Origin: a virus
Virus record (IMG/VR): IMGVR_UViG_3300002835_000507
Location: 1-37,005 of that record
Direction: 5' to 3' (one strand)
DNA: 37,005 nucleotides
The translations under genes were made by a program, and so were the position numbers. The notes beneath the pieces are model-generated. The model was not told where the DNA came from. It did not search any database and saw nothing but the letters and a program-made list of their open reading frames with translations. Shown in pieces: positions 9,493 through 37,005 of this stretch (the first letter of the stretch is position 1; each line of letters opens with the position of its first letter).

Positions 9493-11837
9493 CATTTCAC
9501 CTCGTATTGGAAATTGACAAAAATATCATGGGCCGATGTGCTTGAGGAGTTCCAAATTATTTCAACATCATCGGTCGCCGTAACGGCTTGCACAAAAGCA
9601 GGGTTACTATTTATCGTGGCCGTCCCTCTGTAGAATATGCCGCTACCACATGCATCGGTCTGAAGTGTAAAGTTCGATGCAATCGGTATGCTGATCCTGA
9701 TTCTTGATAGGGTGGGCGCCCCCGCTGTTGTTGTTGTGCCGTTTACCCTAGCTGCGACCGTGACGATGTTCCCCACCCTAGAATACTGCGATACTTGTGC
9801 CGTTCCTTTGTTGCCGCTAGTAACGTTGGTTACCTCCGTCACAGTAGGCGTATAAGTCCCACTCGTCACATTCCCCGCGCCGATGTTGTGGATTTGAGTA
9901 AATGAAACCGCCCCAAGTCCAGTAACGTCCACAAGTCGGGTTTTCCCCGCAAGTGTTCGTTGCCACAATATAAAACCGTTGTCGCCAGCCCCTGTCGTCG
10001 TGTTGTATATTGCGACATCTCGCCGACCGGAAACGCTATTGCCTCCGAAAGCAATGTTCCAATCCGATCCAGAGTCTGCTGGATCCGATCCTGAGTTGTT
10101 GCCGAGTCTCAGTGTTTGAAAAATCCCTGAAGGATTTGCAGATGGCCCAGCAGTCACGGCCCCCGCATCTGTCTGGCTGAAAATCTCAGTGCCGCTCGTG
10201 TTGTCAACAGCCCATCCCGATGTGCCGCCGCGCTTGCGAAGCACGTTCGATGCAACCCAAATGGAGTTGTTAGCGGCAACACCGCCCGACCATGCTGTGG
10301 CCACAGAAAATGTTTGTATAGCGGTCCAGGTCTGAGCAAGTCCAAGAGCTGCTAGCGTGTGTGTGCCCGCTGGGAATGTGCTGTTGGATATGGCTGTCGT
10401 TGTCAGTGTGTGGGCAAAGTTGCCAGCCTTTACGATGCTACCAAGCGACGTAAACGATATGGTTGACGGCATGGTCACGGTGCCGCTAAAGGTCTTGTTT
10501 CCGGTGAAGGTCTCAACACCGCCTAGTGTGGCCAGTGTGCCTGTGGTCGGTAGCGTGACGTTTGTCGTTCCTGTTGTGGTCAAGGTGAGACCGTGAGCCC
10601 CTGACCTTGCGAAGGTGTTGGCCCCTACCGTGATTGACGCTGGTATGGTGAGGGCTCCGCTGAAAGTCTTGTCGCCCGTGAATGTCTGGGTCGTGCTCAA
10701 ACGACCAACATCAGATCCAAGGAATCCGCTGTCTTTGATGGCCTTGCCCGATGTGCCGTCGAACAGCACCACTCTGTTGTCAACAGATGAGGCGGGTCCA
10801 ACGACGTCACCAGTACCCGACACCGTTGCGTATTCAAGAGCTGTGGCCCCTGCGTTGACACGCAAGACTTGCAGTCCTGTACCAAGTGCCGTGAGGCCTG
10901 TGCCGCCCCTAGCTACTGTCAGCGTGCCCGTGGTGCCTCCTACAATGGGCAGCCCTGTGCAGTTGGTCAGCGTGCCGCTATTCGGAGTCCCAAGGACTGG
11001 GGTTACTAGGGTCGGAGTGTTGGCAAACACCAAGGCACCTGATCCAGTCTCGTCGGTCACTGCCGAGGCAAGGTTTGCCGATGACGGTGTGGCTAGAAAT
11101 GTCGCGATTCCGGTCCCAAGGCCAGCGATACCAGTCGAAACTGGCAGGCCCGTGCAGTTGGTCAGCGTCCCTGAGGCCGGGGTTCCGAGCACCGGCGTTA
11201 CTAGGGTCGGGCTGGTCGCAAATACGAGGGACCCTGTGCCAGTTTCGTTCGTGACCGCTGCAAGCAAATTTGCGCTCGATGGCGTTGCTAGGAATGTCGC
11301 GACACCTGTTCCTAGGCCAGAGATGCCAGTGCTCACAGGCAGCCCTGTGCAGTTGGTCAAGGTTCCCGATGTTGGTGTGCCTAGAGCTCCGCTTTGAAAT
11401 AGCAGGGCACCTGTCCCTGACTCGTCCGTGATAGCAGCCCTGAGGTTGGCGCTTGATGGCGTTGTCAGGAATGTCTGGATACCTGTTGCTGCTGAGGACA
11501 GCACTGGAACACTGTCATAGGTCAGCAAGTTGCTAGCGTTGACAGAAAGGGAGAGGTTGCCTGTGTTGGCTGCGTTGCGCCAAACAACGCCCTCTGTGTT
11601 GCCTAGTCTGAATATGCCAGATGTTGCTGGGGTGCTCCTAGAGGCAAAGCTAAGGGCTGCTAGCCCAAAACTTGGTCCAAAGTCTGCACCTGCTGTTAAT
11701 GTAAAGGCCCCGCCTGCCTTAGTGAGGACACCGGTAGGGAGGGCAACAAGGAAAGAGGACAAAGACGGACCCCAACCCGAATCCCCCGTTGCTGGGATGC
11801 TGAAAGAGACTCCGTTAAGCGTTACGTTAGTCGCCAT
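9492..11837 (-). CDS. Tail fibre with tandem 65-residue repeats
   Basis: A 781-residue fibre. The N-terminus (MATNVTLNGVSFSIPATGDSG) is of the type that anchors fibres to the tail. Residues about 120-300 hold three tandem units containing FLATPSSANL, ETGTG and GTLTNCTGLP. A second repeat class follows (TFTGDKTFSG and TFTGNKTFSG, each followed by a TTGTLATL-like stretch), then a C-terminal beta domain of about 130 residues, probably the receptor-binding tip. The site AGAGGAGG precedes ATG 11837. Repeats of this kind form trimeric shafts and recombine easily, changing fibre length. Confidence 0.88.
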   Translation of the reverse strand: MATNVTLNGVSFSIPATGDSGWGPSLSSFLVALPTGVLTKAGGAFTLTAGADFGPSFGLAALSFASRSTPATSGIFRLGNTEGVVWRNAANTGNLSLSVNASNLLTYDSVPVLSSAATGIQTFLTTPSSANLRAAITDESGTGALLFQSGALGTPTSGTLTNCTGLPVSTGISGLGTGVATFLATPSSANLLAAVTNETGTGSLVFATSPTLVTPVLGTPASGTLTNCTGLPVSTGIAGLGTGIATFLATPSSANLASAVTDETGSGALVFANTPTLVTPVLGTPNSGTLTNCTGLPIVGGTTGTLTVARGGTGLTALGTGLQVLRVNAGATALEYATVSGTGDVVGPASSVDNRVVLFDGTSGKAIKDSGFLGSDVGRLSTTQTFTGDKTFSGALTIPASITVGANTFARSGAHGLTLTTTGTTNVTLPTTGTLATLGGVETFTGNKTFSGTVTMPSTISFTSLGSIVKAGNFAHTLTTTAISNSTFPAGTHTLAALGLAQTWTAIQTFSVATAWSGGVAANNSIWVASNVLRKRGGTSGWAVDNTSGTEIFSQTDAGAVTAGPSANPSGIFQTLRLGNNSGSDPADSGSDWNIAFGGNSVSGRRDVAIYNTTTGAGDNGFILWQRTLAGKTRLVDVTGLGAVSFTQIHNIGAGNVTSGTYTPTVTEVTNVTSGNKGTAQVSQYSRVGNIVTVAARVNGTTTTAGAPTLSRIRISIPIASNFTLQTDACGSGIFYRGTATINSNPAFVQAVTATDDVEIIWNSSSTSAHDIFVNFQYEVK
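10957..11541 (-). repeat. Tandem 195-bp repeats inside the tail fibre gene
   Basis: GTGCAGTTGGTCA recurs at 10957, 11152 and 11347, exactly 195 bp (65 codons) apart, with similar flanking sequence. The protein-level units are 59, 65 and about 58 residues, and the N-terminal one lacks a short PTLVTP-type insertion. Synonymous differences between copies show the duplication is not recent. Confidence 0.85.
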
Positions 11838-11853
11838 GGGGTGCCGCCTCCTC

Positions 11854-12399
11854 TTAGATGCCTAGCGAGTATACCACAGCCGCGTCGTTTCCACCGCCTG
11901 TGCCACCAGCCAAAAAGGCACCGCTTGCGGTGATGCTCGTGCCCGTCTCGCTGATGGGGATCAGGTTGCCGATGAGACCTGGCACCTTGCTTGTGACCGT
12001 GACCACAGCAGCAGCGCTAGTTGCCTCTACAACAAGGCCAAGGACCGAATGGGCGTTGATGACAGCAGCAAGGCTCGCAGCGTCCTGTGTGTTGGTGCCA
12101 GCTTGGGACCACTCGTTTTCGTTAGCTGGTGAGGCTTTGGCGGTCAGCGTCACGCCACCAATAACCACGGTGTCGTCTGCAGGCACAGAGGACAGAGTGA
12201 ATGTTCCAGATGCAGCAACAGGGTTGCCAGCACCTGTGCGGACAGACACCGAGGCGGACTTGGTGCCGATAGCAAGCTCTTTGAAGTAACCAGCAAGGGC
12301 AATGGCCTCCTCTTTTGGCTCCCCTGCAGTCTTCTTGAGAGTCTGTTGGAGGTAGGCTTGTGTCTCTTCGGCGTTGATGACGATAGCAAGAGTCGACAT
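11854..12399 (-). CDS. Capsid decoration-like / virion structural protein (181 aa)
   Basis: Starts at ATG 12399 with AAGGAG 7 bases upstream. After a helical N-terminus, residues 60-175 form a beta-rich domain with TVVIGGVTLTAKASP, SLAAVINAHS and KVPGLIGNLIPIS, a pattern seen in phage structural proteins encoded just downstream of the major capsid gene. A decoration role is inferred from position. Hairpins between this gene and the capsid gene may set their expression ratio. Confidence 0.72.
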   Translation of the reverse strand: MSTLAIVINAEETQAYLQQTLKKTAGEPKEEAIALAGYFKELAIGTKSASVSVRTGAGNPVAASGTFTLSSVPADDTVVIGGVTLTAKASPANENEWSQAGTNTQDAASLAAVINAHSVLGLVVEATSAAAVVTVTSKVPGLIGNLIPISETGTSITASGAFLAGGTGGGNDAAVVYSLGI

Positions 12400-13855: not shown

Positions 13856-14879
13856 ACTCAAGCATCTGGTCAGGACTAGAAAAGCGCCGTCTAGGTTTTG
13901 GCTCTGATGGCTCCACTGCTTTTGCGCCTTGTGGCTGTGGTCTTTTGCTTGTGAGCTTGGCCACATCAGCCTTTCTAATCTTCTCGGCGATGTTGGGTCC
14001 TAGCATCTCAATGAGCTTGTCACCGTCAAGCTGTCCGTAAAGATCAGCCTGTGCCTGCTGCCAGTCTTTTTTGACCAGATGTGCCACATCTTGCGGTGTC
14101 ACATTGCTCATGCCCTGCTGCAGAGCTTGCCGCATGTACTGCGCCATGCGCGTGACAGCCCAATCACTTTTGGGGATACCACCAGCATTGAGGGCATCGA
14201 TAAACTGCCGCTCATAGTCCTGTCGGTACTTGTTCTTGAGCTCCTCGCGCTGCTTGGTCTCTTCTTGGGCTTTGCGCTCCTGCTCACCTCTACGGTAACG
14301 CTCGAGCTCTTCGCGCTCCTGCAAGCGAGCCCGCTCCTCTGCTGTCATCTGCTCAGATTGGATCTGCTCGAATATGAGCTCCTGGGCAGCTTCAAGCATC
14401 TTGTCCCTGAGGGCAGGGTGTCTGAGGATCTCGATGGGGTTGTCTTTGAGTGTGGCAACAAGCTGCTCAGCGGACTTTCTGATGTTGGCAGCCTCTTGGA
14501 ACTTACGCTCAGCGCCGAGACCCTTTTGTGCAATCTTGGTCAGTTGGTCAAGGCTTGTAACCTCAATCTCCTGATCGCCTAGTTTGAGCTTCACAGGCTC
14601 GAAGTCTGGCTTGGCTTTAGGTGCCTCAGCGTCTGTGTCCACATCCGCCGACTCAGCCTCAGACTCAGCCTCGGGCTCTGCTTCTGCCTTGGCCTTGCTC
14701 TTAGACTTCTTGCCACCTTCACGCCTGGCCTTGAAGTCCTCAAAGCTCTCACCGTCCATGGGCTCATCGGAGCTCACATCGGCATCTGCCACATTGGGTA
14801 ACACTCCTTCGTTTGGGGTGTCTGCTGCAGGGGCTGCATCAACTACGGGGGTAACGGTCACACTAGCGTCAACGGTCAT
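13848..14879 (-). CDS. Scaffolding protein
   Basis: A 343-residue, highly charged protein. Residues 1-90 are acidic and low in complexity (Asp, Glu, Ala). Residues about 170-230 form a long Glu/Arg/Gln coiled coil (RARLQEREELERYRRGEQ), and the C-terminus is basic (KPRRRF). Acidic, helical composition between portal and capsid is typical of phage scaffolds that guide procapsid assembly and leave or are cleaved. It is coupled to the portal by an ATGA overlap. Confidence 0.85.
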   Translation of the reverse strand: MTVDASVTVTPVVDAAPAADTPNEGVLPNVADADVSSDEPMDGESFEDFKARREGGKKSKSKAKAEAEPEAESEAESADVDTDAEAPKAKPDFEPVKLKLGDQEIEVTSLDQLTKIAQKGLGAERKFQEAANIRKSAEQLVATLKDNPIEILRHPALRDKMLEAAQELIFEQIQSEQMTAEERARLQEREELERYRRGEQERKAQEETKQREELKNKYRQDYERQFIDALNAGGIPKSDWAVTRMAQYMRQALQQGMSNVTPQDVAHLVKKDWQQAQADLYGQLDGDKLIEMLGPNIAEKIRKADVAKLTSKRPQPQGAKAVEPSEPKPRRRFSSPDQMLESL

Positions 14880-16987
14880 AACTGGGCTCCTGTCATTTGT
14901 TCGAGTGCGGCTTGGGCTTGCGCTGGTGCACCAGGTGGCAGGCTCGGAAGGCGCGGTTCATTAGGCATCTGTTCAGGTGGTGCTGATGGGTTGCTGAGCT
15001 GTGGTGGTGGTGTGACCCCTCCTTGTGGCTGCTGTTGTGGCGGCATCTGTGGTTGCATCTGCATGGGCTGCATACCTTCTTGCATGGGCTGCTGTTGTTC
15101 TTGCAAAAGGGTCATGTTGTTAGGTGGCGGTGGTGGCTGCTGCCCTGTGATCATAAGAAGGGCTGCATCGGCTGTACGCCACAGGTTCAGGTGCTCCTGA
15201 ATATGGGTCAGCACCTGGGTCACAAAGTTGGGGTCTTTTCTTGCGTCAGGGTCTGCGATGATGCCCTTATGCTCCACGATGTGTGCTGCATGGTTGTCTG
15301 TGATCAAAGCGATGACAGGCTCACCGCGACGCAACGCCTCATTCTCTGCCCTGATGTTGAGGTTTTCATGGTCCACACCCTCGGTGGCCTGATCAAGCTG
15401 CCCTGTCTGCAGTACGGTCATATACTGCCTAGCGTTTTCGATCATGCCCCGCTCCATGAGCTGGTTAGCAATCTCGATCTTACCGGCTGCAGTCTTGCTA
15501 AGGGCTGACACGGGCTCAATGGTCACGCGGTTGATAAGTGACAGGTCATCACTTGAAAACTCTTGCTGCAAGGGTCTGTTGGCGATGCCGATGATGGCAG
15601 CCACGCGCTTGGTCTGTGAGAAGTCACGGAGCTGGTTGATGATGGCCATGCACACACGTTCCATGGTGGTGATAAGAGACGCCTCAAGCATGGAGCTGAA
15701 CTGCACAGACTGCGACACAACAAGGGCAAGGGCTGATCCTGACTTGAGGTTGGCCTCTGGGTTACCCCTGACAGTGGAGCTAATCCCTGACAGCGTTTCC
15801 ATTTCACCGATGACTGTGCTACGAAAGTTGAAAATCTCAGGAGCAGTGGCGGTCAGTTGGAGGGCTTGGGGCATCTCGTTGCTCGAGATGTGCTTCATAC
15901 CCCCTGTAAGGTCCTTGATGCTGAGGTCATCGCCTTTTTGTGTCCAGACGTTCTGCACACCGTTGGTTGCTTGGTTGGTCATGATTGTAGAGGTCAGGAT
16001 ATCTAGGGCCTGCTGTGGCCCAAGGAGCTCCACTGCAGGGCTGTAGCCGTATGGTGTTCCAATGAGTCTGTCTGGTGAACATTGGTACAACGGGATCTCT
16101 CTGTATGGTATGGGTCCGTCAAAGAGGACCACTTCACCCGTGAAGCTAATCATGCGTCCGTCTGGGAGGGCATCGGTTGGCTTATGGTAAAAGACCCAGG
16201 TTACAACGTAGTCACCGGCTGATGAGTTGTTGAGCCCCTTCCTCAGACTGAAGTTGAACGATTCAAAGTCCTCGTAGTCAAACGAGTCCCTTGTCTCTCC
16301 TAGGATCTTGTCAGCCATCTCAGGGTAACGGGCAGCAAGCGCCCATTTGTTTTCGTACTTGCGGCAACACAGCCAATCGTGCTGCTGTTCTTTGAGGCTG
16401 ATATCACGCACCACATCGGTGATCGTGAGCACAGAGAACTCCAGATCCCCTTCTCTAATAGGAGCTCCTGTCTCTGGCTGCACAGCGATGACCTCACCAC
16501 CTTCAGGGTCCCAAGGGCAATGGATCCAGCCTTCCAAGAGCACGAGGCCATTTTCCACAGCCTCAGCAAACTTGCGCGTTAAGCCCTTCTCTCTGGTGTA
16601 GTAGTCCAGGATGCCGTTACCAAGGTAAGCCTGTGTCTGGCTCTTGTGGTCACTGTTGGTTGACCTGCAGAGGAATGAGTGACGGTTACTGGTGGCAAGC
16701 TGCAAGGTGTGCTTGAGGAGGTTTCTGAAGTGGTTGGTCTTGAAATTGACAACCTCCCCTTGCTTGCCGCCCCTACTGAGTCTTGAGCTTTCAAACAGCA
16801 GGCCAGAGCCACCACGGTCCTTGAGGTCACCACCGTAGTAAGCGGCATAGGACTTCTGGATTAGGTAGAAGAGCTCTGTATCTCTGATGTCATCGTAAAA
16901 GTCCCTGATACGCTGGTGCACCTCTTGGAGAAAATCCTGTGCTGGTGCCCCTGCCCAATAGCTGTCTCTGTTCTCTTTGATCCTCAT
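14876..16987 (-). CDS. Portal protein
   Basis: A 703-residue portal of podovirus type, forming the dodecameric DNA entry pore. A helical wing region, the conserved stretch SPDRLIGTPYGYSPAVELLGPQQALD (only the Pro/Gly-rich core is diagnostic) and a long helical stem lie in the expected order. The last 85 residues are a Pro/Gln/Met-rich tail. The ATGA overlap with terminase and scaffold places it in the packaging block. The size is close to the P22-type class and larger than T7-type portals. Confidence 0.9.
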   Translation of the reverse strand: MRIKENRDSYWAGAPAQDFLQEVHQRIRDFYDDIRDTELFYLIQKSYAAYYGGDLKDRGGSGLLFESSRLSRGGKQGEVVNFKTNHFRNLLKHTLQLATSNRHSFLCRSTNSDHKSQTQAYLGNGILDYYTREKGLTRKFAEAVENGLVLLEGWIHCPWDPEGGEVIAVQPETGAPIREGDLEFSVLTITDVVRDISLKEQQHDWLCCRKYENKWALAARYPEMADKILGETRDSFDYEDFESFNFSLRKGLNNSSAGDYVVTWVFYHKPTDALPDGRMISFTGEVVLFDGPIPYREIPLYQCSPDRLIGTPYGYSPAVELLGPQQALDILTSTIMTNQATNGVQNVWTQKGDDLSIKDLTGGMKHISSNEMPQALQLTATAPEIFNFRSTVIGEMETLSGISSTVRGNPEANLKSGSALALVVSQSVQFSSMLEASLITTMERVCMAIINQLRDFSQTKRVAAIIGIANRPLQQEFSSDDLSLINRVTIEPVSALSKTAAGKIEIANQLMERGMIENARQYMTVLQTGQLDQATEGVDHENLNIRAENEALRRGEPVIALITDNHAAHIVEHKGIIADPDARKDPNFVTQVLTHIQEHLNLWRTADAALLMITGQQPPPPPNNMTLLQEQQQPMQEGMQPMQMQPQMPPQQQPQGGVTPPPQLSNPSAPPEQMPNEPRLPSLPPGAPAQAQAALEQMTGAQL

Positions 16988-18405
16988 GGCAAAAGCATCC
17001 TTTCAATCGATGAGGTTTCTTTATGGCTCATATCGACGTAGTGCGTGTCCTTATGCACCCGCCACCTGTCTGGATAAGGGTTGTCCGTCCTCTGGTGTCT
17101 CAGAAAATAAATGAGCGCTGCTATCATATCACAATGCCCTAGGGCTTCGGTACGGGCAAAGTCTGTCCGTGTCTTGTTGAACTGGCCGTAGTTGAGGGCT
17201 GCAATAAGATTGACGCATCTTTCGTGGATCTCTATTTCGTCTTTCTTAAAGATCGTCCGTGTGTAGTTGACACCAGCCTCAAAGCTGCCCTGCTTCTTTT
17301 TGGGACTAAAGGCATAGAGACCAAGGTTAGCAAGGTCCACACGCACTTGTCCCGGCGTGTCAGCGACGATGCTGTGCTCGTGGTCTTGGGGGACTTGTTC
17401 TATGAGCTTGTGGACCATAGGGACAAGGTCCTTGCTTGCGGTGTTGACTGGCAAGAGAAGCTCGTCAACGATGACATGCTTAGCCTTTGCAAAGTCATAA
17501 TAGCCTATCAGGATGCCGTGCTTGTCCTTGATGCCACCTTGGTCAAGGGACAAGGTCCAATGGGCTCTGTCTGGTATTTTGATCTCTTGCACCACATGCC
17601 GAGGCTCGAACTCTGGTACCACCGTGAGCACCGTAGAACGCACAAGCTCCACAAGGTACTCTCTGCGCCAATCCTCTTCTGTTAGGCACCTGTCCCTAGC
17701 CTCTTTGATCTGCTCAGCGGTCAGTTGCGGATTGTCGTGTATAGTAAATCTAGCAAGGGCACCTTGCAGGGCAAGTTTAGGAATGAGGTCCGCGTGCACT
17801 GAGTGGTTGAGGTCTTTGGAGGGTGTGGTGATGTGGACCATGCGCCAACTCTTTGACCGTAGCAGCATGGGGCCAATGACTGAGCTGATGGCGTAGCGGA
17901 ACTGGTCAGAGGAGCAGGCTGCAGCCCCCTCCTCAATGAGCACAAGGTTGCAGTTGCGACCGCGTGTGGCGTCTGGTTCTTCAAGGGAGCCAATGCGTAG
18001 TTGTGACTCGTTGGTCAGGAACCACCGTCGTTCGGTCTTGTGGCGGAGCAGCCACCCTTGGGGCGCTAGCCTTTGGATGACACTCAGGTTGTCGTTGACG
18101 ATGTCCATGGCATCCTTGTTGGTGCCAGCAAAGATGTAGGCTTTGGTGCGGGGGTTCTTCTGCAGATAGGTCAGGGCATAGACGAGTCCAAAGAAGCTCT
18201 TGCCAAACTGCCTTGAGCACAGAACAAGGAACTCCTTGGAGCCACTACCTTCAATGGTCCGTGCTATCTTGCGTTGTCCGTCATGGAGCATGAAGTGCAA
18301 CTCACCACGACGAAAGAGCTCATGGACACCTGCTGCTAGTTTGGGGTTTGCCCCCATGCGGATCTCAAGGCTGAGCAGAAACTCCGGATCGTTAGCCGGG
18401 TTCAT
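16984..18405 (-). CDS. Terminase large subunit
   Basis: DNA-packaging motor ATPase and nuclease of 473 residues. Residues 63-70 (CSRQFGKS) are the Walker A variant of terminases, and LVLIEE (154-159) is Walker B with its catalytic Glu. The RNase H-like nuclease half has Asp288 (SLDQGG), Asp349 (IVADTP) and Asp426 (GHCDMIAAL). ATG 18405 is chosen because it overlaps the end of the small-subunit gene by 14 bases and has GGGA upstream; the longer frame to 18468 is an antisense-like extension. It overlaps the portal start as ATGA. Confidence 0.95.
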   Translation of the reverse strand: MNPANDPEFLLSLEIRMGANPKLAAGVHELFRRGELHFMLHDGQRKIARTIEGSGSKEFLVLCSRQFGKSFFGLVYALTYLQKNPRTKAYIFAGTNKDAMDIVNDNLSVIQRLAPQGWLLRHKTERRWFLTNESQLRIGSLEEPDATRGRNCNLVLIEEGAAACSSDQFRYAISSVIGPMLLRSKSWRMVHITTPSKDLNHSVHADLIPKLALQGALARFTIHDNPQLTAEQIKEARDRCLTEEDWRREYLVELVRSTVLTVVPEFEPRHVVQEIKIPDRAHWTLSLDQGGIKDKHGILIGYYDFAKAKHVIVDELLLPVNTASKDLVPMVHKLIEQVPQDHEHSIVADTPGQVRVDLANLGLYAFSPKKKQGSFEAGVNYTRTIFKKDEIEIHERCVNLIAALNYGQFNKTRTDFARTEALGHCDMIAALIYFLRHQRTDNPYPDRWRVHKDTHYVDMSHKETSSIERMLLP

Positions 18406-18697
18406 GACTATCCCAATCAGAGAATATGGTCTCTTGTATGATCTGGCCTGTTGGCTTGCGGGCTGCATCTGCTAGCCACTTGTCTGAGGGCTTGATCTCG
18501 ACTTGCTTGGGCTCCATGTACTTAAGCAGAGACTCCCACCCCTTGAGGCGGTCTCTGTCTTGGAGCTCCCCCATGCGCAGTAGGGCTACAATCTCAGCAG
18601 CAGGGTTGACCTTGAGCTCCGCTAAGATTTCTCGGACAGTCTTGGGCTGCTCTTCGAGGACCTCAGGAGTCTTTGGCTCGTCACTTTGTCCAGCCAA
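18392..18697 (-). CDS. Probable terminase small subunit
   Basis: A 101-residue protein just upstream of the large terminase. The core TVREILAELKVNPAAEIVALL, then RDRLKGWESLLKYMEPKQVEI, matches a common small-terminase-like pattern of a helix, an LxxNP turn, and a helix ending in YxxPKxxxI. No separate DNA-binding HTH is obvious. Position and pattern support the call. Confidence 0.72.
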   Translation of the reverse strand: MAGQSDEPKTPEVLEEQPKTVREILAELKVNPAAEIVALLRMGELQDRDRLKGWESLLKYMEPKQVEIKPSDKWLADAARKPTGQIIQETIFSDWDSHEPG

Positions 18698-31118: not shown

Positions 31119-31880
31119 GTGATCAAAACTTGCTTTTACTGCTTAAAAGAATACGACGCTGGTAAGTACTCAAACAATCTTAGAAAATTCTGTTCGGCTG
31201 TATGTAAATGCAAGGCCACTCCAAAGAAAAATCCAAAGAAGAGGCTGTCAGATCGGACTTTCTCTTGCCATCATTGTGGCAAGGAGTATAGGCCGCTACT
31301 TGAAAGAGAATCCTTTACAAAACATTGCAGCAGACTATGCCACAACCGCTCAATAGGTGCTGCAAAAATATCAGAGCAGACTATAGAGAGAAGATTGCAG
31401 CTAATTTTAGATCCTGAAAACGAGCACCTTAGAAATCGCGTTTCATTCAATTCTGTCGGTAGGCCTTACATTCAGACGCCAAACGGCCACAAACAAATGA
31501 CAGGTTTAGGGCGTTTTATTATTAGCGCACCAGATGGGCTAGATGTTGACCACATTAACCGAAACTTTATGGACAACAGGAAAGATAATCTTAGGACCTG
31601 TTCTAAATCTGAGAACATGAACAATAGAGGAGAAAATAAGAGAAGAAGCGAAAAAAATAAAGATCTGCCAACTGGGGTTATAAAAGACGGAAACAAATAC
31701 TATGCGGTAATATTTAGAAAGGAAAACGGCAGGTTACTAAGCACTAGGTTAGGATCGCATCACTGCGTTCATGAAGCCAAGAAAGCTTATGACGAAGAAA
31801 GACTAAGAAGATCGGGGCTTACCAAACAACATCAAGAATTTTTGGGTTGTACTTCCGAAGAGCCGCAACAATCCCCTTGA
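31119..31880 (+). CDS. HNH homing-type endonuclease with zinc-finger N-terminus
   Basis: Two Cys clusters lie at the N-terminus (CFYCLKEY with FCSAVCKC; CHHCGKEY with HCSRLCH). The HNH core is at about residues 135-170 (GLDVDHINRNFMDNRKDNLRTCS), and a C-terminal AP2-like DNA-binding domain (KYYAVIFRK to AKKAYDEE) follows. This is the usual build of free-standing phage homing endonucleases. GGGAGG lies 8 bases before GTG 31119. It is AT-richer than its surroundings, opposite in strand to its neighbours, and overlaps the 3' end of the lysin gene by 62 bases: signs of mobile insertion. Confidence 0.9.
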   Translation: MIKTCFYCLKEYDAGKYSNNLRKFCSAVCKCKATPKKNPKKRLSDRTFSCHHCGKEYRPLLERESFTKHCSRLCHNRSIGAAKISEQTIERRLQLILDPENEHLRNRVSFNSVGRPYIQTPNGHKQMTGLGRFIISAPDGLDVDHINRNFMDNRKDNLRTCSKSENMNNRGENKRRSEKNKDLPTGVIKDGNKYYAVIFRKENGRLLSTRLGSHHCVHEAKKAYDEERLRRSGLTKQHQEFLGCTSEEPQQSP

Positions 31881-32964
31881 GGTCGGTCATATTTCGAGCA
31901 CCGAGACATCCCGCTGTTCCATATGCGTTGCCATCGATGTGAATGCCTATTGCTGATCTTCTGGTCTTAAACATCGGTTCTAAGCCAACCCAAACGGGGC
32001 CAATGGCTTCGGACCAATCTGCTTCATAATTGTCTTTCCCGCCTGCAAACTCAATTGAACCTATTTTCCATTTTCCAGCAGGCAATGGGCGCATTGATCC
32101 AGGTACATTGTTCATATTCCCCTGTTCAAACACCTGCGCCCAAGGTTGTCCGCTGCGGCAAATGAATGACTGATCGCCAATGACAAGCTTAAGCTCTTCG
32201 CAACCCTTTGCCTCTTTTTTGCCCGTTCGGCTAAGTGTGGCAACACTAACTGGCGTCGGCTTTACAGCCTCGCCCTCAGGCTCCCAGTCTTCGACGGTCA
32301 CGACGGCTGTGCCTGCAGAGGGTACAGCGGTCAGGAGCTTCACAAGGTCTTCTCTGGACTCCCACACCTGCTCGCTCATGACGTTAGCTGCGTTCATGGC
32401 CCTAAAGATGTTCTTTGGCTTATCACCGCTCTTGCGCGTGAGTGCAATCCAGGTTGGTGTCGTCACGGGTGAAGCTCCTTTGTCTTTGTTCCAGAGCTCA
32501 AGCTCTGCCTTGCGCCTAGCCACAAGACCAGCGAGCACCTTACCACTGCCACCCTTGTTGTACAAAGGCAGGGCTTTAGCAAAGCCCTCTAGTTCTCCTG
32601 CCTCGAGGCGCTCTTTCTGCTTGGTGTTGGGGCCTGCGTTGAACACAAAACTCGTTGCCGCATCAAACTGGCTCTGCGTGAGCTTCTTTGTCATCCTGTT
32701 GACCGATGCAGCAGCCACCTCGATGGCTGCCATGAGCTCCTGTTCAGCCTCTTGTCTTGTCAGGGTGTCCTTGAGGTTGATGGTGTGTCTGCCATACTTT
32801 GCTAGACCTGAAGTCCGGTATCTAGTTGACCCCCAACCTATGGTGTAGGGCTTGCCATCAAGGGAGCCTGGGTCAAGGTAGGTCTTGCAGTCACCATTGG
32901 GCAATAGGGTATGGTAGCCTTCAAAGAACTTGATCAGGTCTATGCAATCTTTGCTAGGCTTCAC
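31819..32964 (-). CDS. Two-domain lysin: GH24 muramidase plus L,D-transpeptidase-like domain
   Basis: Residues 1-150 are a T4/P22-type lysozyme: Glu15 (FFEGYH), Asp31 (YLDPG) and Thr41 (YTIGWG) form the catalytic set, with a longer insert between Glu and Asp than usual. The C-terminal domain (about 235-381) ends in RRSAIGIHIDGNAYGTAGCLGA, whose His and Cys match YkuD/DUF2778-like L,D-transpeptidase active sites in a shortened form. There is no signal peptide, so a holin would be needed. The C-terminal third is AT-richer than the muramidase part and touches the HNH gene. Confidence 0.85.
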   Translation of the reverse strand: MKPSKDCIDLIKFFEGYHTLLPNGDCKTYLDPGSLDGKPYTIGWGSTRYRTSGLAKYGRHTINLKDTLTRQEAEQELMAAIEVAAASVNRMTKKLTQSQFDAATSFVFNAGPNTKQKERLEAGELEGFAKALPLYNKGGSGKVLAGLVARRKAELELWNKDKGASPVTTPTWIALTRKSGDKPKNIFRAMNAANVMSEQVWESREDLVKLLTAVPSAGTAVVTVEDWEPEGEAVKPTPVSVATLSRTGKKEAKGCEELKLVIGDQSFICRSGQPWAQVFEQGNMNNVPGSMRPLPAGKWKIGSIEFAGGKDNYEADWSEAIGPVWVGLEPMFKTRRSAIGIHIDGNAYGTAGCLGARNMTDLKGIVAALRKYNPKILDVVW

Positions 32965-34441
32965 GTTTGGTAAAGCTCCTGATAGCTATGGCTGCGTTGA
33001 GTACAGAGAACACAAGAGGCGGTAGCAGTTGCCACAAAGAATTGTACTGCAAGGCGTTGGCGGCACCAAAGGCCAGTAGCGTCAAGATAGTTGCATTGAG
33101 CACAAAGGCCACACGCCTGGCCTTGTGGTAGCGTGAGGGTCCGCCTTTTTGTCCTGTTGGTACCCAGCCATGGATCTTGCCTCTGAGCTTGTCTGTTAGT
33201 GCGAACAGATGGGCGTAGTAGCTAACCTGCCTCAAATAGAGGTAGTTCCAGTCTGGCTTGTAGACGGACCAAGCAAGAATAAACGCTGTCCCAAACAAAA
33301 ACGACGGTGCGTAGAACATGATGTTGATGGCATAGATCTTCTCTGGCAGGAACCACATCATGAACAAACCAGGCGCATGAAGCAAAAACAAAGATAAAGC
33401 TGTGGTGATGTAGTAGAGGAACCCTGATGAGTAGCAGACCTTCTGCAGGGCTGTGAGGTTGCTTTCCCAAAACTGAGAGGACAGCCCGAGGCTAAGGGAA
33501 CCTGAACACCATCGGTACTGCTGGTTGAAATACTGGCTCAGAGAGTCTGGACACCTGCCCTTACTAAGGGCTAACGGCAGATACTCCACACGGTAGCCAT
33601 GTGTCGTTAGGGTGTAGCCTGTCCAAACGTCTTCGCTGTGCTCAATCTGCACAGGGCCACCGATGAGCTCCATGGCTTTGCGGTTGTAAAGAGCGCATGA
33701 GCCAACACAGATGGGTCCTTGGTAGTGGTTGCGGCTGACCTGGATGACTCTGTAAAAGAGCTCCTGCACATAGCCAGCCCCTCGCTCCACCCAGCTCATC
33801 CACGGGGAGACATCGAAGAACTGCGGGCTCTGCACAATGCCTATGCGGTTGTCACTGAGCATGACAGGCATTATGCGCTCGATCATATCGGGCCTCGGGC
33901 AGAAGTCCGCATCGAGGATCAGGATGTGGTCGCCTCGTGTGCGTGTGAAGGCATATTTGAGGTTGCCAGCCTTCTTGTTCTCCCCTCTGTTGGGTCTGCG
34001 GATGTAGTGGAAGCCGTAAGACTCTGCTAGTTCCCTGAGGCTGTCTGTTGGGGAGTCATCAAGCACATAGATGTTGAGAGATGGCCACTGCAGTCTTTTC
34101 GTGTGGGACCAGGCGTTGGCGATGATGTGCTTATCTTCACCACAGACAGGCAAGTAAACGTCAACAGAAGGTTTAAGATGCTTTAGTTGGGCATATATGC
34201 GGTTATATTTGCTTATATCGTAGCTTGGGGAGAACACCCCAATGAGATACGAGACGCTGAGGTAAAACACAGTCAACGCAAAGAACGGCAAGTAGAACCA
34301 TGTGTCCATCAACGTGGCTTGAAGGAACAGCACCATGCCGGCGACAAGTGGCATGAAGGACAACAGGCCAGCCCACACCGCAAGGCCTTTGGGCTTAGCA
34401 ATGTAGGAGGTCAGCTCATTGTCATCAGGAGGGCAGATCAC
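32954..34441 (-). CDS. Polytopic cellulose-synthase-like family 2 glycosyltransferase
   Basis: A processive GT2-type enzyme. Two membrane helices lie at residues 20-70, and the cytosolic GT-A domain carries VLDDS (Asp128/129), DAD (177-179), SED (269-271, the TED position) and QQYRW (307-311). At least four more membrane helices follow (about 340-460). All catalytic motifs of BcsA-type synthases are intact, but no PilZ domain follows. It starts at GTG 34441 (GTGA overlap with the secreted protein) and overlaps the lysin start by 11 bases. It probably makes or extends a surface glycan on the infected host. Confidence 0.9.
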   Translation of the reverse strand: MICPPDDNELTSYIAKPKGLAVWAGLLSFMPLVAGMVLFLQATLMDTWFYLPFFALTVFYLSVSYLIGVFSPSYDISKYNRIYAQLKHLKPSVDVYLPVCGEDKHIIANAWSHTKRLQWPSLNIYVLDDSPTDSLRELAESYGFHYIRRPNRGENKKAGNLKYAFTRTRGDHILILDADFCPRPDMIERIMPVMLSDNRIGIVQSPQFFDVSPWMSWVERGAGYVQELFYRVIQVSRNHYQGPICVGSCALYNRKAMELIGGPVQIEHSEDVWTGYTLTTHGYRVEYLPLALSKGRCPDSLSQYFNQQYRWCSGSLSLGLSSQFWESNLTALQKVCYSSGFLYYITTALSLFLLHAPGLFMMWFLPEKIYAINIMFYAPSFLFGTAFILAWSVYKPDWNYLYLRQVSYYAHLFALTDKLRGKIHGWVPTGQKGGPSRYHKARRVAFVLNATILTLLAFGAANALQYNSLWQLLPPLVFSVLNAAIAIRSFTKREA

Positions 34442-34752
34442 CAGAGCTTGACGTTAACGCGAAAGCCTGGCTCCACATACTGGTCTTGCTCTTCAAGCTT
34501 GAACTCGACCGTGGGACCAAACTTGACAGGACCAACAGTGAAGTCAATGCCATGCTGGCTTGAGCCCCAATGCTCGCCGTCGTCCTGGCCATAGCCGTTC
34601 CAGGTCCAATAGGCTAGGCCCTTGGTGTAGGCTGCAAAGGAGACGCCAAGACTAAACTTGTCCTCCTGCTTAACAGAGCTTGTGATGCTTGCGGTTGTGC
34701 CTGCAAGGGCAGCAGATGGCAACAACAAGGCAGAGACGAGTAGCGCGCGCAT
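34438..34752 (-). CDS. Exported small beta-rich protein (104 aa)
   Basis: Residues 1-17 are a signal peptide (MRALLVSALLLPSAALA). The mature 87 residues show alternating strands (FSLGVSFAAYTKGLAYWTW, FTVGPVKFGPTVEFKLE) and a terminal aromatic, as in short outer-membrane barrels or periplasmic sandwiches. GGAGGT lies 8 bases before ATG 34752 inside a perfect inverted repeat. Coupled to the glycosyltransferase, so it may act with its product at the cell surface. Confidence 0.8.
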   Translation of the reverse strand: MRALLVSALLLPSAALAGTTASITSSVKQEDKFSLGVSFAAYTKGLAYWTWNGYGQDDGEHWGSSQHGIDFTVGPVKFGPTVEFKLEEQDQYVEPGFRVNVKLW

Positions 34753-34755
34753 AGT

Positions 34756-34780
34756 ATGACCTCCGTGGTGTGGAGGTCAT
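34756..34780 (-). promoter_or_regulatory. Inverted repeat over ribosome site of 34752 gene
   Basis: ATGACCTCC (34756-34764) and GGAGGTCAT (34772-34780) are perfect 9-bp arms with a 7-bp spacer. In the leftward transcript the GGAGGT arm is the ribosome site, so pairing would hide it. The other arm begins inside the -10 hexamer, so in DNA it could equally be a repressor operator at the start point. Confidence 0.6.
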
Positions 34781-34814
34781 TGTACCTTGGGGCTAGCGGT
34801 GGCGCAAATTGCGC
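34779..34814 (-). promoter_or_regulatory. Leftward promoter of the secreted protein/glycosyltransferase operon, with palindrome
   Basis: TTGCGC (34807-34802), 17 bp, TACAAT (34784-34779) on the minus strand. The -35 is one arm of GCGCAA-A-TTGCGC (34802-34814), a perfect odd palindrome. The palindrome lies in the 3' end of the small membrane-protein gene. Confidence 0.5.
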
Positions 34815-34957
34815 TGGTGTTCTTGACGCATGAACTCAACGGCCCGCTTAAGCTGCCTCATCTCTGCCGTCTCGTTGCGGTGGTAGGTGACCTCTGCCCA
34901 TAGGGCTATAAGAAAGAAGACGATGACCAGGGCTAGTGTTGCTAGAACCCACAACAT
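34793..34957 (-). CDS. Small membrane protein (54 aa)
   Basis: Begins MLWVLATLALVIVFFLIALW, a single membrane helix, and continues as a charged, amphipathic helix (HRNETAEMRQLKRAV to LRHR). The start overlaps the exonuclease stop as TGATG. The layout fits a small inner-membrane accessory or lysis protein; no family can be named. Confidence 0.68.
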   Translation of the reverse strand: MLWVLATLALVIVFFLIALWAEVTYHRNETAEMRQLKRAVEFMRQEHQRNLRHR

Positions 34958-35712
34958 CAAAAGGGTCCTCCCTTAGGCTTAGGGTGCTTACGGTCAGCAT
35001 AGAGCTTGATGGCCTTGTTGCGGGCAATCAGACCTAGGTCTATGACTGACCGGCTGAGCTGCTCAAGCTCCACCCTGTACGGTGGCACCGATTCTATCCA
35101 TACAATGGCATGGTCATTAGGCTTCTGGATGCAGAGGTCTGCATAGTGTGCAAGCTGGCAGTGGTAGTTAGCTGAGAACAGCACATCGACCCGCTTAGCC
35201 CAATCGGATATGGTCTTAAGGTCAATGAGGGTGCAAGAGAGTGCGTCGGTGTGCAGCCAGTCGAGTTTGCCCTTGAGACTAATGCCATCCACATTGCCGA
35301 AGACCTCCAGCTCAACAGTGTCTGAGCAAGGTGGGGTCATGGCGTTGTCTATTATCATACGCTCGAAGTTGCGCTTGATGTGGTCCAGTGCCCAATTGTG
35401 CTCGTGGCGTATGACAATGCTGCCACGGTACTCTGCGAGAGTCTCTGCCTCAGCCTTGGTTTGCTTGCCCTCTTTAAGGGCGAAGCTCTTGACGTAGGGC
35501 ATCACGACGTCGTCCACGTGCTTCCAAGGCTCAAGGAGGGCACGGTGCACTAGGGTGCCAAACTCTGCAGCAGGGCTTGGGTCACGCTGCATCCACTCGG
35601 GCAGGGTGCCTGCTTCCACAAGTTGCCGCTCGAACCACCAACGCTCAAAGTCTGCGACCATGTTGCGGATGTCGGAGCCACCAAGGGCAAGACTCTTGCG
35701 ATACTCGCTCAT
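34957..35712 (-). CDS. PD-(D/E)XK exonuclease (RecB/Cas4-like fold)
   Basis: A 251-residue nuclease with the phage exonuclease layout: GTLVHRALLEP (His56), Glu136, Asp151 (KGKLDW), then IDLKTI (Asp164, Lys166) and QLAHY (Gln186, Tyr190). Members resect DNA ends for recombination, often with an annealing protein or ATPase. Here the Sak4-like ATPase and DUF669-like protein are upstream in the same run, supporting such a system. Overlaps the HTH gene by 4 bases. Confidence 0.88.
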   Translation of the reverse strand: MSEYRKSLALGGSDIRNMVADFERWWFERQLVEAGTLPEWMQRDPSPAAEFGTLVHRALLEPWKHVDDVVMPYVKSFALKEGKQTKAEAETLAEYRGSIVIRHEHNWALDHIKRNFERMIIDNAMTPPCSDTVELEVFGNVDGISLKGKLDWLHTDALSCTLIDLKTISDWAKRVDVLFSANYHCQLAHYADLCIQKPNDHAIVWIESVPPYRVELEQLSRSVIDLGLIARNKAIKLYADRKHPKPKGGPF

Positions 35713-36441: not shown

Positions 36442-37005
36442 TTAATGCTTAAGACTTGTCCAGAACTCTTGATCAGGGTTGGGTATTTCTTCCGCAATGG
36501 GCCACCTAGACTTGGCTACATATTGGGGCTTGTCTGTTGTGAGCAGCACGCGGGTGCCGTTGCCTATGGCCTTGTCGTCCTTGACGAGGACCTTTTGTTT
36601 GAGAAGGAACACACCGTCCACTTGGCTGATGATCTGAGGGTGCAGGTCCTTGTCACAGTCGAGCTCGTAGCGGTCATAGCTTTGTTGGGAGACGGGGTCG
36701 GTGACCTCTCTGGTCTTAGCATGTGCTATGAGCAGCACATTCTTACCAGCAGCACGGAAGTTGTGGGCAACTTGTGTGAGGAGGTTGGTGAACTCCTGCC
36801 GCCACATCTTTTTACTTCTGCCGTAGTCCAGAGCCTCAATGGTGGTCCATCCCTTCTCCTTGCAGAGCTGGTCGGTGTGGACACGCTCTAGGGCTGTGAG
36901 GCTGTCAATGACCAGTGTGGTGAACTCTGCCCCATGCAGCGTGTTGAGTGCCTCTTTGAGGTCCTGGCCTTCTAGCGTGAGGCGAGCCACATCAAGGAGG
37001 TCTGT
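36442..37005 (-). CDS. Sak4-like RecA-fold ATPase, C-terminal part (cut by window end)
   Basis: Continuation of the gene that begins at 554. This part holds Walker B (FTTLVIDS), a TNLLTQVAHNFRAAGKNVLLIAHAK strand region with a sensor-type His, and the C-terminal TTDKPQYVAKSRWPIAEEI stretch typical of Sak4-like ATPases. Walker A lies in the missing N-terminal part. Bases from 36575 on duplicate 1-431. Confidence 0.85.
   Translation of the reverse strand, partial: TDLLDVARLTLEGQDLKEALNTLHGAEFTTLVIDSLTALERVHTDQLCKEKGWTTIEALDYGRSKKMWRQEFTNLLTQVAHNFRAAGKNVLLIAHAKTREVTDPVSQQSYDRYELDCDKDLHPQIISQVDGVFLLKQKVLVKDDKAIGNGTRVLLTTDKPQYVAKSRWPIAEEIPNPDQEFWTSLKH
36575..37005. repeat. Terminal direct repeat, right copy
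   Basis: Exact copy of 1-431. It makes part of the ATPase gene appear twice in the window. Confidence 0.95.

Follow-up and report, generated by a model that had tools for sequence, protein, structure and literature searches.

This locus raises the question of what a bacteriophage would do with a polysaccharide-synthase-like membrane enzyme of the GT2 type and with the small exported protein encoded directly upstream of it. The DNA analysed here (the window) comprises all 37,005 nucleotides of the virus record IMGVR_UViG_3300002835_000507 and represents a complete phage genome of 36.6 kb with an exact terminal repeat of 431 bp (bases 1-431 = 36575-37005), in which terminase, portal and major head genes were found. 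The gene order on the minus strand is exonuclease, 55-aa membrane protein, 104-aa exported protein, GT2 and phage lysozyme, and the elements of the locus are as follows.

34793..34960, minus strand: 55-aa protein with a single transmembrane segment, encoded on the same strand immediately upstream of the pair
34756..34780, minus strand: hairpin ATGACCTCC-ACACCAC-GGAGGTCAT, the 3' arm of which contains the Shine-Dalgarno sequence of the 104-aa gene
34438..34752, minus strand: 104-aa exported protein, a predicted six-stranded mini outer-membrane beta-barrel or barrel subunit, with the C-terminus ...FRVNVKLW
34702..34752, minus strand: predicted Sec signal peptide of the 104-aa protein, MRALLVSALLLPSAALA (from reading of the sequence and A-x-A type sites in relatives)
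34438..34441, minus strand: GTGA overlap of the stop of the 104-aa gene with the start of the GT2 gene, which has no strong Shine-Dalgarno sequence of its own
32954..34441, minus strand: GT2 polysaccharide-synthase-like membrane enzyme, 495 aa, GTG start (open reading frame, profile and structure model)
31819..32964, minus strand: phage lysozyme (endolysin), the gene of which shares 11 bp with the 3' end of the GT2 gene

An HNH endonuclease gene (31119-31880, plus strand) lies on the opposite strand in an AT-rich patch and overlaps the 3' end of the endolysin gene; a relative of it is located just downstream of the pair in another viral contig (L009). The portal and terminase proteins of the window (14876-18468, minus strand) are both closest, at about 30 %, to those of a Silvanigrella aquatica phage (CP017838), hinting at a Bdellovibrionota-like host.

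The preliminary description of this DNA had read the larger gene as an intact, polytopic GT2 of the processive type, and profile and structure searches agree with this reading. The protein matches the Pfam family Glycos_transf_2 at 2e-22; among NCBIfam models BcsA/CelA (TIGR03030, 1.5e-46) scores best, and the top matches among solved structures are BcsA (9e-36). It is regarded as intact and polytopic because the AlphaFold model is confident (pLDDT 91, pTM 0.90) and places two membrane helices at the N-terminus and several at the C-terminus. The folds nearest to this model are BcsA (TMq 0.68-0.70), followed by plant CesA and hyaluronan synthases. The enzyme carries the motifs DD128-129, D177xD179, SED269-271 and QQYRW307-311, and DD, DxD, ED and QxxRW are invariant across 27 aligned GT2 relatives. 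A loss of motifs in relatives, which had been named beforehand as an argument against the reading, did not occur, since DxD, [ST]ED and QxxRW are retained in all 18 viral GT2s found. Sequence and model together identify an intact BcsA-like enzyme of putatively processive type. With BcsA it shares DD, DxD, [ST]ED (TED appears as SED here), QxxRW, the fold and the processive-type topology; it differs in the lack of BcsB, of a PilZ domain (no PF07238 match in a Pfam search) and of the FxVTxK gating loop, the position of which is occupied by W426-V-P-T-G430, and it reaches only 158.8 bits compared with the TIGR03030 cut-off of 699.1. An assignment as cellulose synthase proper was rejected on the grounds of PilZ, gating loop and score; without PilZ and with W-V-P-T-G in place of FxVTxK, the product can therefore not be called cellulose.

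The 104-aa protein had been proposed as an exported beta protein acting as a partner of the GT2. Its AlphaFold model, calculated with six relatives, shows a six-stranded meander after the signal peptide (pLDDT 82), with strands of 10-14 residues each, and thus upholds the beta structure. Among solved structures the model matches portions of the outer-membrane barrels of invasin, intimin and OmpU (probability 1.00), hits that are suggestive only because E is about 0.02; among viral structures it matches outer-membrane-like proteins of cyanophages (9e-5). The alternation of hydrophobic and polar residues in the strands scores 19.4 in the window protein compared with 7.6 ± 2.3 in shuffled sequences, none of 5000 shuffles reaching the observed value. 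In the 17 small proteins the C-terminus is aromatic, with tryptophan last in 15, phenylalanine last in one and tryptophan penultimate in one, and this residue is retained also in genes where it is not imposed by an overlap with the GT2 start. The hydrophobic residues near the C-terminus stand at -2/-4/-6/-8 rather than at the usual -3/-5/-7. By inspection, the signal peptides of the family follow the n/h/c pattern, with A-x-A type sites in the relatives. The protein therefore combines a predicted Sec signal, amphipathic strands of membrane length and an aromatic C-terminus, all traits of outer-membrane barrels, and has six predicted strands compared with the minimum of eight for a closed monomeric barrel. 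The resemblance to outer-membrane barrels is suggestive. No Pfam family matched the small protein, searches of isolate phages with it gave no match, nor did a search of viral contigs with the window protein as query, and the alignment of the family is too divergent for a pattern search.

Scans of viral contigs, keyed on the GT2 alone, yielded 17 further distinct viruses with relatives (18 with the window). The coupling by GTGA at 34438-34441 had also been pointed out in the preliminary description, and 17 of the 18 viruses encode a small beta protein with a signal peptide upstream of the GT2. This co-occurrence is not circular because the loci were found without using the small protein. In 15 viruses the small gene overlaps the GT2 gene or ends at most 12 bp from it; in L107 a 61-aa HTH-like open reading frame and in L109 a DNA methylase gene is placed between the two, and only in the divergent L117/L118 is the small protein missing. 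Upstream of the GT2 it was found in none of the 80 chromosomal relatives checked, which are mostly actinobacterial, as expected for a component of the outer membrane. Apart from the pair the phages are mostly unrelated, and their other flanking genes are mostly not common to the 18 viruses; the pair consequently moves as a unit. Its sites differ from phage to phage (next to lysis genes in some, next to sugar genes in others, or between terminase and portal), and in this it resembles the morons, mobile cargo genes of phages, in that the same cassette sits at different places in different phages. A sigma-70-type promoter site was not found near the pair. The pair is best read as a mobile two-gene phage module, and its co-inheritance is recurrent and not due to chance. 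In virus pairs close enough to be tested both genes are under purifying selection, with dN/dS values for L008/L009 of 0.04 (GT2) and 0.13 (small protein) and similar values for two further pairs. That the two genes are passenger DNA with no function in the phage has the usual prior and nothing beyond it in its favour, and is scarcely credible in view of this selection and the repeated co-inheritance.

The two genes could also be independent surface tools with no joint export route, the mini-barrel blocking or mimicking a receptor and the GT2 modifying a host glycan. Cyanophages possess outer membrane protein-like beta-barrel proteins (e.g. Q6SL64) which are close to the small protein in size and fold, and we know of no pairing of these with a GT2 in the matched records; neither Pfam nor tblastn revealed a link between them and the small protein. 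The single gene separating the partners in L107 and in L109 would fit such independence as well. However, co-occurrence in 17 of 18 viruses, mostly with overlapping genes or gaps of at most 12 bp, in phages with few other genes in common, speaks against independence, which we consider unlikely.

UDP-sugar 6-dehydrogenase genes adjoin the pair in 4 of the 18 viruses, in three of these together with an epimerase gene. TviC-like and TviB-like genes lie directly downstream of the pair in L107/L108, a TviC-like epimerase and a short dehydrogenase beside it in L116, an epimerase and a dehydrogenase beside it in L114, and a fragment of a UDP-sugar dehydrogenase upstream of it in L001 (PF00984, 6e-19). 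Among the genes beside the pair two epimerases are closest to TviC and one dehydrogenase is closest to TviB. This likeness to the Vi-antigen enzymes, seen in L107 (TviB-like 437 bits, TviC-like 234 bits) and for TviC in L116, stays below the equivalog cut-offs and has no counterpart in the window. The Vi polymer itself is made by enzymes other than TviB and TviC. Members of the dehydrogenase and epimerase families were found only beside the pair and nowhere else in those viral contigs. In 14 of the 18 viruses, window included, no sugar-nucleotide gene was detected, several of these contigs being incomplete. Of 81 mostly actinobacterial loci, 23 have a UDP-glucose dehydrogenase gene at a distance of about 3 kb from the GT2. 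The dehydrogenase and epimerase neighbours suggest an acidic polymer.

Some of these dehydrogenases have peculiarities of their own. The one of L114 (8325-10106) is split by an intein (Intein_splicing and LAGLIDADG matches), which seems to sit at the catalytic cysteine (GGK-C...HN-CFPKD). Those of L116 (2555-3430) and L001 (1-327) stop soon after the catalytic motif, and no C-terminal UDP-binding domain was matched in the L116 protein. A weak dehydrogenase match in G004 was rejected, as it represents a ThiF protein. L096 (468-2115, the contig of L010) contains a phage ThiF/E1-like gene, the neighbour of which shows by eye a JAMM-like HSH motif for which Pfam gave no match.

As judged from their gene content, phages with the pair probably give the infected cell a coat or an altered surface. 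The explanation preferred here, to which we give an even chance, is a phage module of GT2 and mini-barrel which makes a trans-envelope glycan and thereby limits superinfection and the loss of progeny; the glycan perhaps contains uronic acid and the hosts are perhaps Gram-negative. The GT2 would polymerise UDP-sugars, taken from the host pool in the case of the window phage, which has no sugar-nucleotide gene, and in some relatives UDP-hexuronates provided by a dehydrogenase and an epimerase that the phage itself encodes. It would push the chain over the inner membrane without control by c-di-GMP, and the mini-barrel in the outer membrane of a Gram-negative host may act as exit, guide or anchor. 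Expression of the pair would probably be late, beside the lysis genes. Masking of receptors on the infected cell and on debris, by which superinfection and progeny loss would be limited, is the least certain step. Of the preliminary description, the anatomy (GT2 of processive type, exported beta protein, coupling) thus holds, and more strongly than was claimed, whereas the roles put forward there, a coat, a block of superinfection or a change of the receptor, are inference; the barrel resemblance, the sugar-nucleotide genes in four relatives and the lysis genes nearby had escaped it. A periplasmic partner of the BcsB, BcsC or TPR type was not found for the pair. In a stricter form, which we regard as rather doubtful, the pair would be a minimal secretion machine of the phage, in which an oligomer of the mini-barrel is the exit for an acidic GT2 polymer made from phage-supplied UDP-hexuronates, giving the phages a capsule of their own on infected cells. 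An oligomer would be needed for export because known glycan exit pores are wider than a single barrel of six strands.

A different role is suggested by the genes next to the pair, which are a lysozyme in the window, an amidase in L008 and L009, a CHAP protein in L010 and possibly, by inspection, a holin-like protein in L001. Glycan and barrel, made late, could destabilise the outer membrane and so replace or help the spanins. The translation signals point in the same direction. The small gene of the window has a strong Shine-Dalgarno sequence (GGAGGT) inside the stem of the hairpin at 34756-34780 (z -3.4), which resembles the hairpins that block early translation of T4 lysis genes and so delay them (PMC3014915). 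Of the 17 barrel genes (that of the window among them), 11 have a mostly paired Shine-Dalgarno sequence, compared with 26 % of 140 other starts in the same loci, an enrichment (p 6e-4, uncorrected) noticed after the fact. Against a lysis aid stand the copies outside lysis cassettes, such as that of L094 between terminase and portal, and the dedicated UDP-sugar genes, which would be costly for a last-minute effect on lysis; we consider this role distinctly unlikely.

The trans-envelope glycan module has its closest parallel in kind, by analogy and not in identity, in the hyaluronan system of the chloroviruses. Chlorovirus-infected algae produce hyaluronan or chitin fibres of unknown benefit, and the synthases are likewise virus-coded membrane GT2s, accompanied in some viruses by an own UDP-sugar dehydrogenase (PMC7019647). 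They differ in that they are early genes of viruses of eukaryotic algae, that the fold of the window GT2 is nearer to BcsA (TMq 0.68-0.70) than to chlorovirus hyaluronan synthase (TM 0.62 at best), and that an outer-membrane-type partner is present here, whereas a hyaluronan synthase produces its GlcA-GlcNAc polymer as a single polypeptide. The fibres would also be a precedent for a polymer that holds progeny or infected cells together in an extracellular matrix, shielding virions or aiding spread, but the present data hold no specific support for such a matrix and we judge it improbable. Among phages the closest parallel is the differently built pair gp157-gp158 of cyanophage S-CBWM1, in which the gene of an envelope-spanning partner also precedes a phage GT2 gene with a 4-nt overlap. 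However, gp158 is a true BcsA type with PilZ and falls outside the GT2 clade described here, and gp157 is an HlyD-like membrane-fusion protein instead of a mini-barrel. The S-CBWM1 locus (L098, 2373-5725), with its HlyD-like gene and its PilZ-bearing putative cellulose synthase, represents a second phage pair of synthase and export protein. From the phage gtr clusters for serotype conversion the window differs in that the flippase GtrA and the bactoprenol transferase GtrB were found neither beside the pair nor among the larger open reading frames scanned. Nothing of the GT2/small-protein subfamily was detected among 50,697 isolate phage records, and a literature search of open-licence papers revealed no description of a phage module of this kind. 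If the trans-envelope reading is true, bacteriophages, as the chloroviruses do, make extracellular polysaccharide during infection, and the two-protein system they use for it is far smaller than the Bcs or Pga machines. The export of glycans could then be studied on the pair as a simple model, and the pair would represent a testable cell-surface strategy of phages that is missing from the isolate collection searched.

In phylogenetic trees, a check proposed in the preliminary description, the viral GT2s cluster with a gene of a Leptolyngbya plasmid and a truncated copy from a metagenome-assembled genome (MAG), adjacent to Actinobacteria; E. coli BcsA and PgaC as well as S-CBWM1 gp158 are located outside the group. 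A virus-only clade is neither established nor contradicted by the trees (AU p 0.365 with the first seven viral GT2s, support 81 with all 18). The IMG/VR contig L012 falls among actinobacterial genes and is treated here as bacterial. The truncated copy (L051, 7989-8972) encodes 327 aa with 52 % identity to the window GT2, in a MAG labelled Akkermansia. A chromosomal origin in Verrucomicrobiota was rejected, as only 1 of 388 genomes has such a gene, this one being truncated, and no full-length relative at E <= 1e-100 is present among the 388 genomes of that phylum. The related plasmid gene (L097, 6980-8491, Leptolyngbya boryana plasmid pLBA) lies among PHROG-matching genes and after a holin-like 55-aa open reading frame, so that pLBA may be a phage-plasmid. 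Finally, L011 contains on its minus strand (9566-12036) two adjacent genes which, by reading only, resemble NAD salvage enzymes (NadV-like and NMNAT-like).
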